Positions 17,174 through 59,162 of a stretch of 64,000 bases of DNA are shown one piece after another (positions within the stretch are counted from its first letter, which is position 1; each line of letters opens with the position of its first letter). Source of the stretch: Cytophaga aurantiaca DSM 3654 (GTDB lineage Bacteria; Bacteroidota; Bacteroidia; Cytophagales; Cytophagaceae); assembly GCF_000379725.1 (NCBI RefSeq), contig NZ_KB903626.1:106-64105 (forward strand). Direction: 5' to 3'. A program made the translations under genes and the position numbers. The notes beneath the pieces were generated by a model that saw only the letters and a list, made by a program, of their open reading frames with translations, had not been told where the DNA came from and searched no databases.

Positions 17174-18574
17174 TTAAATGTGTAACGCTCTGTTGTCCGT
17201 AGCAGCTAAACACGCTTCTTTGAACGACTCGGTGAACGTTGGGTGTGCATGAGACATTCTGCTCACATCTTCAGCAGATGCTCTGAATTCCATTGCGACT
17301 ACCGCTTCAGCGATCATATCCGCCACACGTGGCCCGATCATATGTACACCTAAAATCTCATCTGTATTTTTATCGGCAAGTACTTTTACAAAACCATCTA
17401 CGTCCATAGATGCTCTCGCTCTACCTGAGGCTTTGAATGGGAAGTTTCCTACTTTGTATTCTTTGCCATCTTTTTTCAATTGTTCTTCGGTATAACCTAC
17501 TGCTGCAACTTCAGGCCATGTATACACAACACCCGGAATTAAGTTGTAATTGATATGCGGTTTTTGTCCGGCGATTGATTCTGCAACAAACACACCTTCT
17601 TCTTCTGCTTTGTGTGCAAGCATCGCGCCTACTACTACGTCACCGATTGCATAAATACCCGGTACGTTTGTCTGTAAGTGACCGTCAACAGCTACTCTGC
17701 CGCGCTCGTCCAGCTTCACACCTGCAGCTTCTAAGCCAAGGCCTTCTGTATACGGACGACGACCTGTTGCTACCAACACGTAATCACCTTTCAATTCAAT
17801 TACTTTACCGTCTTTGTCTTCTGCGGTAACGGTTACTTCTTTGCCTTTCGCAGAAGCACCTGTTACTTTATGACTGAAGTAAAATTCGAAACCTAAATGG
17901 TTTTTAGAAACTTTGATCAATTCTTTACCCAACGCTCTATCCATCGTAGGAATCAATGTATCCATAAATTCTACTACTGAAACTTTAGCGCCCAAACGTG
18001 CATACACCGAACCAAGCTCCATACCAATTACACCGCCGCCAATAACGATCAGGTGTTTCGGTACTTCTGTCAATTCCAATGCTTCCGTAGAAGTGATGAT
18101 GCGTTTTTTATCGATCGCAACATTTGGTAACGACGTAGGCTTAGAACCGGTAGCGATAATTGTTTTCGCTGTTTTCAATTCTTTCACACTACCATCGGCA
18201 GCTGTTACTTTGATGGTGTTTTTATCAACGAACGAACCGATGCCTGTATGCACATCAATCTTATTCTTCTTCATCAGATAATTGATACCATCGCATGTTT
18301 GTTTCACCACACCTGCTTTGCGATCAATCATTTGTTTGATGTTCACTTTTACACTTGCTACATCAATACCATGTTCTTTGAACGTGTGCGTTGCATTGTA
18401 ATAATGCTCTGATGAATCCAATAATGCTTTTGAAGGAATACAACCTACGTTTAAGCAGGTACCGCCCAGGGTACTGTATTTTTCAATCAATGCGGTCTTC
18501 ATACCAAGCTGTGCGCAACGGATTGCTGCTACATACCCACCAGGACCAGAACCGATAACTACTACGTCGTACAT
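17174..18574 (-). CDS. lpd: Dihydrolipoyl dehydrogenase (E3), 466 aa
   Basis: Flavoprotein disulfide reductase that reoxidises dihydrolipoamide with NAD+. FAD-binding GSGPGG is at residues 8-13, the redox disulfide C40-LNVG-C45 follows, an NAD-binding GGGVIGMELGSVYARLG block lies near 175, the second FAD motif AIGDV is near 310, and the catalytic HAHPTFTE block is near the C-terminus. Full family length. It follows sucA and sucB on the same strand, which supports E3 of the 2-oxoglutarate complex, though the same E3 may also serve pyruvate dehydrogenase. The 158-base gap to sucB holds a heptad-repeat hairpin element. Confidence 0.97.
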   Translation of the reverse strand: MYDVVVIGSGPGGYVAAIRCAQLGMKTALIEKYSTLGGTCLNVGCIPSKALLDSSEHYYNATHTFKEHGIDVASVKVNIKQMIDRKAGVVKQTCDGINYLMKKNKIDVHTGIGSFVDKNTIKVTAADGSVKELKTAKTIIATGSKPTSLPNVAIDKKRIITSTEALELTEVPKHLIVIGGGVIGMELGSVYARLGAKVSVVEFMDTLIPTMDRALGKELIKVSKNHLGFEFYFSHKVTGASAKGKEVTVTAEDKDGKVIELKGDYVLVATGRRPYTEGLGLEAAGVKLDERGRVAVDGHLQTNVPGIYAIGDVVVGAMLAHKAEEEGVFVAESIAGQKPHINYNLIPGVVYTWPEVAAVGYTEEQLKKDGKEYKVGNFPFKASGRARASMDVDGFVKVLADKNTDEILGVHMIGPRVADMIAEAVVAMEFRASAEDVSRMSHAHPTFTESFKEACLAATDNRALHI

Positions 18575-18579
18575 GTTTT

Positions 18580-18731
18580 TAGTTGCTAGGTACTAGTTGC
18601 TAGCTACTAGACTTGTAACTAGCAACCAGTACCATTATTTAAAAGTTAAAATTCTATTTAATATTATTAAGTTATCAGGGTTTGTCGCTCTTCTCTCGTC
18701 TGGAAACTAGCAACTAGTACCTAGTAACTAG
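18580..18731. repeat. Intercistronic heptad-repeat hairpin element, copy 1 (CTAG type)
   Basis: The left arm 18580-18610 reads as exact 7-base units TAGTTGC, TAGGTAC, TAGTTGC, TAGCTAC, then TAG. The right arm 18707-18731 reads CTAGCAA, CTAGTAC, CTAGTAA, CTAG. Positions 18580-18603 and 18708-18731 are inverted copies at 23 of 24 positions. A second dyad lies inside the left part (18589-18607 against 18614-18632, 17 of 19). The element fills the space between the sucB stop and the lpd start almost exactly. Confidence 0.85.
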
Positions 18732-18732
18732 A

Positions 18733-20265
18733 TTAAACTCCTAAAAGCAATCTGCTCGGATCTTCCAACAATTGTTTCACACGAACTAAGAAACCTACAG
18801 ACTCACGTCCATCGATGATACGGTGATCGTAAGAAAGTGCTAAGTACATGATCGGACGGATCACAACTTGTCCGCCTATTGCTACCGGACGCTCAACGAT
18901 GTTGTGCATACCTAAAATCGCAGACTGTGGAGAGTTGATGATCGGTGTAGACAACATAGAACCGAAGATACCGCCGTTTGTAATTGTGAATGTACCACCA
19001 GACATTTCATCGATGCTTAATTTACCATCACGTGCGCGTGTTGCCAACCGTACGATCTCTGCTTCGATCTCATTAAAGCTCAATGTTTCCGCATTGCGGA
19101 TAACAGGTACTACCAACCCTTTCGGAGTAGATACCGCAACCGATACATCACAGTAGTTGTGATTGATGATCTCATCGCCATCAATGTATGCATTCACTGC
19201 TGGGAATTCCTTTAAAGCAATACAAACCGCTTTTGTAAAGAACGACATAAAGCCTAAACCAATACCGTATTTTTCTTTGAAGGTGTCTTTGTATTTAGAA
19301 CGCAAGTCCATCACTGGCTTCATGTCTACTTCATTGAATGTAGTAAGCATGGCTGTTTCGTTTTTCACTGCTACCAAACGGCGCGCAATGGTTTTACGAA
19401 GACTTGTCATTTTCACACGTTCGTCTGCACGACCTGCTACCGGCGCTTTTGCTGCCGGAGCAGAAGCTGCTGCCGCTGGTTTAGCTGCTGCTGCCGGAGC
19501 TGCAGATGCTTTTAATGCATCTTCTTTTGTGATGCGGCCGTCTTTGCCTGAACCGGCTACTGCAGAAGCATCAACACCTTTTTCATTTAATATTTTACCT
19601 GCTGCCGGAGAAGCATGTCCTGCTGCATAGTTTCCACCAGAAGCAGAAGCTGCTGCTGTAGCCGCTGGTGCAGAAGCCGGACCTGCTGCTTGCGCTGCAC
19701 CACCTGCGCCCGGAACGATCTTACAAACTACTGTTCCGATTGCTACTGTATCGCCTGATTTAGATATCAATTCGATTGTACCCGTAGTTTCAGCGTGTAA
19801 TTCAAACGTTGCTTTATCTGATTCGATCTCTAACAATAGATCACCAGCTTTTACTGCATCGCCTGATTTAACAGACCATGCACCTAATGTTACTTCAGTA
19901 ATAGATTCACCTACTGTTGGAATTTTAACTTCTACCGGTGCTGCATTTGAAGCTGCTGGTGTTGAAGGAGCCGCTGCTGCTGGAGTAGCGGCTGGTGCTG
20001 CTGCTGCAACTGTCTTAGCTGCAGAACCTGTACCTTCTTCAATAGAACAGATCACAGAGCCAACAGCTACGGTATCGCCCTCTTTTGCGTTCAATTTTAA
20101 TGTACCTGCTTTTTCAGCAATCAATTCAAACGTTGCTTTGTCTGATTCGATCTCACAGATCAAGTCGTTTACATTTACAAACTCTCCATCTTTTTTATTC
20201 CATCTTCCGATGGTTACTTCTGTGATGGATTCACCTACTGTAGGTACTTTTACTTCAAATGCCAT
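18733..20265 (-). CDS. sucB: 2-oxoglutarate dehydrogenase E2, dihydrolipoyl succinyltransferase, 510 aa
   Basis: Two N-terminal lipoyl domains, each with the motif [11 protein letters not shown] (lipoylated K43 and K151), separated and followed by Ala/Pro-rich swinging linkers. A peripheral subunit-binding domain (about 220-255, [17 protein letters not shown]) docks E1/E3. The C-terminal catalytic domain ends with [16 protein letters not shown], carrying the active-site His and Asp. It transfers succinyl to CoA. E. coli SucB has one lipoyl domain, so two is a difference, though two are known in other lineages. It lies 53 bases after sucA on the same strand. Confidence 0.95.
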
Positions 20266-34336: not shown

Positions 34337-34337
34337 T

Positions 34338-34420
34338 TAGGTACTAGTTGCTGGTTGCTAGCTTCTAGATAAAAGTTCTTTATACATCTGTCTCGTAACT
34401 GGAACCTAGTAACTGGAAGC
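34338..34420. repeat. Intercistronic heptad-repeat hairpin element, copy 2 (CTAG type)
   Basis: The left arm 34338-34368 reads TAGGTAC, TAGTTGC, TGGTTGC, TAGCTTC, TAG. The right arm 34395-34420 reads GTAA, CTGGAAC, CTAGTAA, CTGGAAG, C. Both keep an exact 7-base period, but the arms match each other less well than in the other two copies (about 13 of 19 in the best alignment). It sits between the start of the dehydrogenase-like gene and the stop of the transferase gene. Confidence 0.75.
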
Positions 34421-38605: not shown

Positions 38606-38630
38606 CTTATTTTAGTTTCCAGTTTTTATT

Positions 38631-38743
38631 TAGTTACCAGGTGCTAGTTTCTAGGTACTAGACAAAAGAATAACAAAACTGTATTTTATATTTTATTTTA
38701 ATTTATAATCTTTCCAAGTCTAGAAGCTAGTACCTAGAAACTA
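38631..38743. repeat. Intercistronic heptad-repeat hairpin element, copy 3 (CTAG type)
   Basis: The left arm 38631-38663 reads TAGTTAC, CAGGTGC, TAGTTTC, TAGGTAC, TAGAC. The right arm 38718-38743 reads GT, CTAGAAG, CTAGTAC, CTAGAAA, CTA. Positions 38645-38661 and 38727-38743 are perfect 17-bp inverted copies around a very AT-rich spacer. The last three bases of the right arm are the TAG stop codon of ridA, read on the minus strand. Confidence 0.85.
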
Positions 38744-39121
38744 TTTAACAGCTATACAACTTATTTCAACATTGACATCTCTCGGCAAACGGGCAACTTC
38801 AACTGTTTCACGTGCAGGTTTTGCATCACCAACATAACTGCCATATACTTCATTGATGGCTGCAAAATTATTCAGGTCTTTAACAAAGATGGTACACTTT
38901 ACAATATCTGAAAAACCATATCCTGCTTCGATTAAGATCGCTTCCATGTTTTTCATCACCCGATGTGTTTCATTTTGAATCGAATCGGTAATTAAATTTC
39001 CTGATTCCGGATCAAATGCAACCTGTCCTGAAACATATAATGTAGTTCCTGCTAATATAGCCTGACTGTATGGCCCGATCGGTTCCGGAGCTTTCGTGGT
39101 ATTAATTATTTTCTTTGTCAT
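38741..39121 (-). CDS. ridA: RidA family enamine/imine deaminase, 126 aa
   Basis: Small trimeric protein that hydrolyses reactive 2-aminoacrylate and similar enamines to keto acids. Family blocks: NTTKAPEPIGPYSQAI at the start, LYVSGQVAFDP, VKCTIFVKDLNNFAAINEVY, and ARETVEVARLPRDVNVEISCIA near the end, with the substrate-binding Arg in ARLPRD. Full family length. The stop codon lies within a repeat element, so its 3' end was reshaped by, or coincides with, the insertion. Confidence 0.92.
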   Translation of the reverse strand: MTKKIINTTKAPEPIGPYSQAILAGTTLYVSGQVAFDPESGNLITDSIQNETHRVMKNMEAILIEAGYGFSDIVKCTIFVKDLNNFAAINEVYGSYVGDAKPARETVEVARLPRDVNVEISCIAVK

Positions 39122-59029: not shown

Positions 59030-59136
59030 AAATTCCAAATTTTAAAAAAACAAATTTAAAACGACTGATATTACTTTCCGGTTTAAATCTATTTTCCTCT
59101 GTTTGGGATTTGTTTTTTGTTATTTGGAATTTAACC
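59030..59136. repeat. Intercistronic heptad-repeat hairpin element (TTTG type)
   Basis: The right arm reads as exact 7-base units TTTGGGA, TTTGTTT, TTTGTTA, TTTGGAA, TTTAACC (59102-59136). The left arm from 59030 (AAATTCCAAAT, then an A-run and ACAAAT) is its approximate inverse: the outer 11 bases pair perfectly with 59122-59132 and an inner 11-base A/T-rich block also matches. It lies between the ugd stop and the UDP-xylose synthase start, the same setting as the three CTAG-type elements. Confidence 0.75.
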
Positions 59137-59162
59137 TGCTGTATTAAACTTAACATTCAATG

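Follow-up and report, generated by a model that had tools for sequence, protein, structure and literature searches.

What occupies the gap between sucB and lpd in Cytophaga aurantiaca, and why do two arms of seven-base units face each other across it? We examined this locus within a 64-kb window, the whole stretch of 64,000 nucleotides that was analysed. The gap (18575–18732) separates the upstream gene sucB, encoding dihydrolipoyl succinyltransferase (18733–20265, minus strand; TIGR01347), from the downstream gene lpd, encoding dihydrolipoyl dehydrogenase (17174–18574, minus strand; TIGR01350). The left arm (18579–18613, plus strand) consists of the five heptads TTAGTTG CTAGGTA CTAGTTG CTAGCTA CTAGACT, and its outermost TAG lies 5 nt from the lpd start codon. 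The right arm (18697–18731, minus strand) is the inverted 35-nt repeat that it has in common with the left; it reads CTAGTTA CTAGGTA CTAGTTG CTAGTTT CCAGACG on the minus strand, and at its outer end it comes to within 1 nt of the stop codon of sucB. The spacer interior (18614–18696, no strand assigned) is AT-rich and absent from the other elements examined. A repeat search paired 18580–18612 with 18698–18730 (33-nt arms, 88% complementary, 85 nt between). An earlier, sequence-only reading had described arms of CTAGnnn units that are inverse copies at 23 of 24 positions, and we obtained the same figures for the outer 24 nt (23/24 complementary, 103 nt between). The heptads of that description stand, but the left-hand unit is more exactly CTAGKTN and the right-hand unit its reverse complement, with CCAG often in second place. 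The second dyad it had placed within the element was also recovered, as an inner inverted copy (18612–18633, no strand assigned) that pairs with 18589–18610 at 86%.

The sucB-lpd gap is not the only one of its kind in the window. With at most one mismatch, CTAGNNNCTAGNNNCTAG has 12 matches there, all within three elements near 18.6, 34.3 and 38.7 kb (mean 0.05 in shuffled sequence), two of them being the further elements that had been pointed out before. CTAG is scarce in the window: base composition predicts ~221 occurrences but 51 were found, 19 of them within the three elements. The left arm of the second element (34337–34371, plus strand; TTAGGTA CTAGTTG CTGGTTG CTAGCTT CTAGATA) directly adjoins the minus-strand start codon of a 406-aa gene for which a profile search gave no family match, and its degenerate right arm (34389–34420, minus strand) lies near the stop of a 576-aa gene with a PRK13279 match below its cut-off. 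The third element has its left arm (38630–38664, plus strand) upstream of gltX and its right arm (38717–38744, minus strand) near a 126-aa Rid-family gene, whose stop codon is the outermost TAG of that arm (complement of 38741–38743). NCBIfam profiles confirmed lpd, sucB, gltX and the Rid-family gene. As had been stated, all three elements lie between co-directional genes (sucB/lpd, PRK13279-like/406-aa ORF and Rid-family/gltX). Another heptad core is present in the window at 59038–59162 (no strand assigned), a spacer that holds TTTGNNN heptads in a period-7 array (TTTGGGA TTTGTTT TTTGTTA TTTGGAA TTT).

The C. aurantiaca assembly (4,423,500 bp in 46 contigs) holds exact CTAGNNNCTAGNNNCTAG at 93 sites per strand, versus 0 for the reversed control, and for the directional pattern CTAGKTNCTAGKTN there are 42 matches on one strand and 48 on the other (control, 2 + 2). 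The sequence-only reading had proposed a dispersed family and had named a lack of further copies, or loss of the seven-base period, as what would count against it; copies are abundant genome-wide and the period is kept. Among 59 related genomes, the three-unit pattern is frequent in the same genus only, with 43 matches in relative G001 (a MAG), 11 in relative G002 (one contig of 4,433,218 bp) and few elsewhere. Contigs 30, 47, 73, 76, 87 and 98 of G001 have CTAG heptad arms no more than ~170 bp from an end, which suggests that heptad arms break assemblies.

We surveyed arms by scoring chains of CTAGKTN units in 42 stretches from the window's genome and in 5 and 13 stretches from two relatives. 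The usual arm has five units (35 bp) and the consensus, outward from the gene, N-TAG-TTN-CYAG-KTN-CTAG-KTN-CTAG-TTN-CTAG-AC, in which the N that closes each triplet is A, G or T and rarely C. Counting bases position by position in 49 elements separates fixed from free positions and gives the unit CTAG[GT]T[AGT]. Both arms follow this one consensus in inverted orientation, pointing outward from the flanking genes. The interiors differ between elements, with 10 to about 600 nt enclosed; several contain a clear intrinsic terminator (strict criteria overlook long-loop terminators, so no terminator rate is claimed), and some gaps are armed on one side only. The element is two 35-bp gene-edge repeats with an unrelated spacer, at times including a native terminator, between them. 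Its earlier description as one hairpin unit is not upheld, since each interior is independent and variation in one arm does not follow that in the other. Gaps in three genomes also hold near-perfect heptad tandems, of CTACTGT (about 9 copies), ATTATGA (about 12) and AATTATG (about 14), at L190:4310–4372, L297:16945–17045 and L287.

The outer edges of the arms coincide with gene edges. Arms are anchored at stop codons, where they often begin exactly, or shortly before start codons, in agreement with the gene-edge location read earlier, and their exact anchoring at the stop codon is a point beyond that reading. In the surveyed stretches, with CDS edges taken from ORF calls rather than annotation, 55 genes have an outward arm within 60 nt of the stop. 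These genes end in TAG (48), TAA (6) or TGA (1), compared with 23, 145 and 23, respectively, among the 191 other genes. In 40 of the 55 the stop codon is itself one of the arm's first three TAGs, at offsets of −4 (31 genes), −11 (4) and −18 (5) for the first, second and third TAG. That stops fall in an arm merely through readthrough into it was rejected, because protein ends are unchanged: the C-terminus is the same as that of the orthologue in 39 of 49 comparisons, and the orthologous stops at these unchanged ends are TAG in 19, TAA in 18 and TGA in 2. On the start side, 17 gaps were examined; 8 have their outermost TAG 1–7 nt from the ATG, and in the others the distance is 23–204 nt. By orientation of the flanking genes, armed gaps are -- (16), +- (11), ++ (8) and -+ (2), compared with 56, 27, 33 and 30 for all gaps in the same stretches; convergent gaps are over-represented among armed gaps and divergent ones are rare.

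Orthologues of 49 gaps were located in relatives by one chimeric protein query, and the sequences of most of them were retrieved. Period 7 is present at one or both edges in 31 of 46 orthologous gaps in G002 and in 29 of 30 in G001, against 20 of 161 random G002 gaps drawn from 20 evenly spaced 20-kb stretches. Lags 6 and 8 gave counts of 0–2 in the orthologous sets and 4–7 in the random set. At a score of at least 24, the random sample has period 7 in 15 gaps and the other lags tested between 5 and 12 in 0–2 each. The core at a given gap often differs between species: at sucB-lpd it is CTAG in the window's genome and in G002, and AGTACNN in G001. Further cores are GCTTAAN, GAATTAT, AAGTTTT, TAAGTAA and CAAATNN. 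Nested sets recur, for example CTAG outside AGTAC. Where both sides could be classified they carry the same core in 27 cases and different cores in 2; with the sides nearly always of one core, the arms are able to pair. This whole-core exchange between species at one gap is likewise new relative to the earlier reading. It also bears on the idea of an all-frame stop guard, in which CTAGNNN puts TAG in all three frames of both strands and so prevents readthrough into the next gene. Such a guard would follow directly from the CTAG core sequence and would suit the usual identity of the stop codon with the arm's first TAG, but AGTACNN, GCTTAAN and CAAATNN occupy the same gaps and give no such guarantee, and we regard it as very improbable.

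Alignment of orthologous gaps indicates vertical inheritance of arms at several junctions (39, 20, 28 and 37). At junction 20 the window's genome has a 42-bp whole-arm block exactly at the stop codon; the corresponding second arm is present in G001 and there is none in G002. This presence and absence implies that whole arms are gained or lost at the gene edge. The unit of gain or loss is the whole arm (35–42 bp), and the native spacer stays inside; interiors are orthologous between species at several gaps. Arms are anchored at existing stops or shortly before starts, and come and go whole. Shortening of arm-less orthologous gaps is weak (median difference +10 versus −5, P = 0.08). Independent insertion at each edge is unlikely, because single-sided cases are too few for the genome-wide density by our estimate. 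Other palindromes occur in the same spacers. A CCGCCGCGGCGG-type palindrome interrupts heptad arms in G002 spacers at junctions 2, 6, 21 and 34 (L216, L220, L234 and L246), and G001 does not have it at junctions 2, 6 and 34, as if it had been inserted in G002. The intergenic palindrome GGTCTGTGTGCCACAGACC and its variants are found at G002 junctions 7, 25, 30 and 46 (L221, L238, L242 and L258), gaps that carry heptad arms in the window's genome.

We then asked how closely the two arms of an element fit each other. The sucB-lpd spacer has a strong predicted fold (RNA, −51.9 kcal/mol, z = −5.95; DNA, z = −4.36). Over the 49 elements, however, the mean match of an arm to its own partner is 15.98 versus 17.12 for permuted partners (z = −2.4), and the free N position is matched in 28% of cases versus 33% expected. 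Differences that an mRNA stem would tolerate as G-U pairs are rarer than those of the opposite kind (57 versus 86), and in co-directional gaps the duplex energy of own arms is slightly weaker than that of permuted arms (z = +2.4), with other gaps unchanged. These effects are small and come from related tests on one set of 49 elements; in co-directional gaps their sign is weakly opposite to fine stem selection. Partner shuffling, G-U asymmetry and duplex energy therefore lend no support to a finely selected RNA stem with compensatory change, and a stem kept perfect by strand-switch repair is not supported either, since own arms fit no better than those of other elements. The coarse relation is strong, with one core mirrored on both sides even after a change of core. 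Selection, if any, would act on a moderate stem or on symmetry rather than on exact pairs.

The explanation that we consider best, with a likelihood a little short of even, is that heptad arms are copied from gap to gap, reach no farther than the coding sequence and persist as a mirror-paired, imperfect clamp. Arms would spread by copying from other gaps, and purifying selection on coding sequence would fix their outer edge. Pairs would be kept because an imperfect stem of both arms closes the spacer, which in co-directional genes would bring the stop next to the start; in convergent genes the arm pair would bound the terminator region. What would then count is that the arms pair coarsely and keep the seven-base rhythm, not which sequence they have, and a mismatch about every seven bases would keep the stem moderate. 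Dispersal, stop anchoring, conserved presence, core exchange, a core shared by both sides, vertically inherited arms, the gain or loss of entire arms at the stop codon and strong predicted folding all argue for this explanation. Against it stand the own arms that are no better matched than random ones, the rarity of G-U-compatible differences, the slightly weaker own duplex and the existence of one-sided gaps, and also the terminators inside several convergent pairs, on account of which one transcript may not hold both arms.

The main rival is that the heptad arrays are a mutational or selfish by-product of seven-base slippage and copying between gaps, tiling non-coding stretches up to the coding edge and yielding a functionless hairpin. 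We think this possible, though rather doubtful. The independent variation of arms at free positions and the gains or losses of whole arms favour it, and polymerase slippage has been proposed to explain why heptanucleotide repeats are so abundant (Mrazek et al. 2007, cited in PMC4679880). Slippage alone, however, should give perfect local tandems, whereas the arms follow one 35-nt consensus in which the second unit is frequently CCAG. Arms are also present at the same gaps in different species much more often than the background rate would give, and the core changes on both sides at once. In a third reading a DNA- or RNA-binding protein marks gene edges and leaves one footprint per heptad, its preferred core shifting between species. 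The rhythm is indeed better conserved than the sequence, and weakly specific binding of heptamers by the cold-shock protein CspB is discussed in PMC4679880, but an RNA-binding array has no need of the inverted arrangement, and we consider this reading improbable. Paired arms that clamp the spacer remain our preferred explanation.

Among known systems, the heptameric-repeat parallel drawn earlier is apt. Cyanobacterial STRR are degenerate seven-base repeats in intergenic DNA, and in this description they resemble the arms; we know of no paired gene-edge arms among them. The nearest known system is the P6b stem-loop of the Nostoc tRNA-Leu(UAA) group I intron, which is built of degenerate heptanucleotide repeats with Class 1 and Class 2 motifs (PMC3488679). 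Common to both are degenerate seven-base repeats that pair (in Nostoc) or are predicted to pair (here) as a hairpin, variation in copy number and different motifs at one site in relatives, in Nostoc two motif classes in related strains. The Nostoc repeats occupy one intron site, whereas the arms described here, including those between sucB and lpd, lie in many protein-gene gaps, are anchored at stops or starts, hold a spacer inside and use at least five cores. The TAACTGA heptamer direct repeats of Beggiatoaceae, cyanobacteria and some Bacteroidetes also lie in gaps near start codons and sometimes overlap a stop codon, but they have a single core and are perfect direct repeats, with only one indirect repeat reported and no paired arms (PMC4679880); the cores here are CTAGKTN, AGTACNN and others. 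In Geobacter metallireducens, putative regulator sites include a class 3 of five MTYCTGA heptads, the classes occurring mostly in pairs, and 49 elements with four GGGACCG-type heptads; tandem heptads, paired sites and many copies are points of likeness, but the sequence is another, and the excerpts of that source make no mention of stop-codon anchoring or core exchange (PMC2700814).

More familiar intergenic elements fit less well. The interiors here differ between elements and are orthologous between species at several gaps, unlike the conserved interior of a MITE. The arms enclose 10 to about 600 nt, unlike the G+C-rich short-loop stem and T run of an intrinsic terminator, and separate terminators distinct from the arms lie inside some elements. 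REPs are 20–40-bp palindromes, mostly with a GTAG or CGTC tag (PMC3733652, PMC2817692), and REP/BIME elements share with ours an intergenic position near gene ends, inversion and high copy number. REPs have no seven-base period, however, and the arms are 35-nt heptad arrays running from TAG to CTAGAC in place of the tag (PMC3733652). An element of this type moved by a RAYT transposase was entertained because RAYT-like Y1_Tnp genes occur in the genus (the three genomes have 8, 4 and 6 matches), but these are mostly flanked by other palindromes (CTAGGGGC..GCCCCTAG, GACCCC..GGGGTC and AGTCTTTGACTG), and no CTAG or AGTAC heptad arm was found in the Y1_Tnp flanks inspected. RAYT-driven mobility was accordingly rejected as exceedingly unlikely, and the earlier REP/BIME parallel falls for want of heptads beside RAYT-type genes. 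The Y1_Tnp genes with their own nearby palindromes (L022–L036) are candidate REP/RAYT systems of the genus. In Rfam, no family matched at gathering score, and sub-threshold miRNA-like stem matches alone were returned, which we took as chance. The open-access literature, the scope of our search (subscription papers lie mostly outside it), contained no description of heptad arms in Cytophaga that are stop-anchored, mirror-paired and core-exchanging, and the framed-gap pattern, with period and mirror kept and core replaced, looks undescribed so far.

Within the order Cytophagales, AGTACNNAGTACNNAGTAC is found in 31 of 292 genomes and 18 of 109 genera, across several families (control, two genomes). 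One genome of another family (G033) has several loci of the same architecture; at L315 and L323, for example, the order runs from a stop codon through an AGTACNN arm, a short interior and the inverted arm to an ATG. The patchiness of this distribution speaks for arrays that arise as a by-product. We tentatively put forward a broader possibility, as somewhat less than probable: a class of gene-edge structure in which rhythm, mirror arrangement and stop/start anchoring are inherited and sequence is exchanged wholesale between species. If so, something in the cell would read or build period and symmetry, not sequence, and would be in use throughout Cytophagales and perhaps beyond. To our knowledge, the over-abundance of heptanucleotide repeats in bacteria has no accepted reason. 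Here mirror pairs of heptad arms sit at gene edges, often with single-base precision, and relatives have the core replaced; this replacement at the same gap is a natural experiment that separates period, pairing and sequence. The role of bacterial seven-base repeats thereby becomes directly testable, in a genus with culturable members.

Among the matches listed from unrelated bacteria, CTAG heptads that lie no more than 30 nt from a gene edge are oriented outward, with KT, in at least 58 cases and in the opposite sense in at least 24. These loci were selected by pattern, and by our arithmetic hundreds of three-unit chance matches are expected in 257 Gb, so that single matches outside the order prove little; heptad arms in unrelated bacteria are a lead only. 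Their occurrence near gene edges there would also suit functionless arrays. Runs of CTAG heptads with variable triplets, some mirror-paired near gene edges, were seen at L051, L054 and L100, whose hosts are an uncultured bacterium, Aestuariicella and another uncultured bin.
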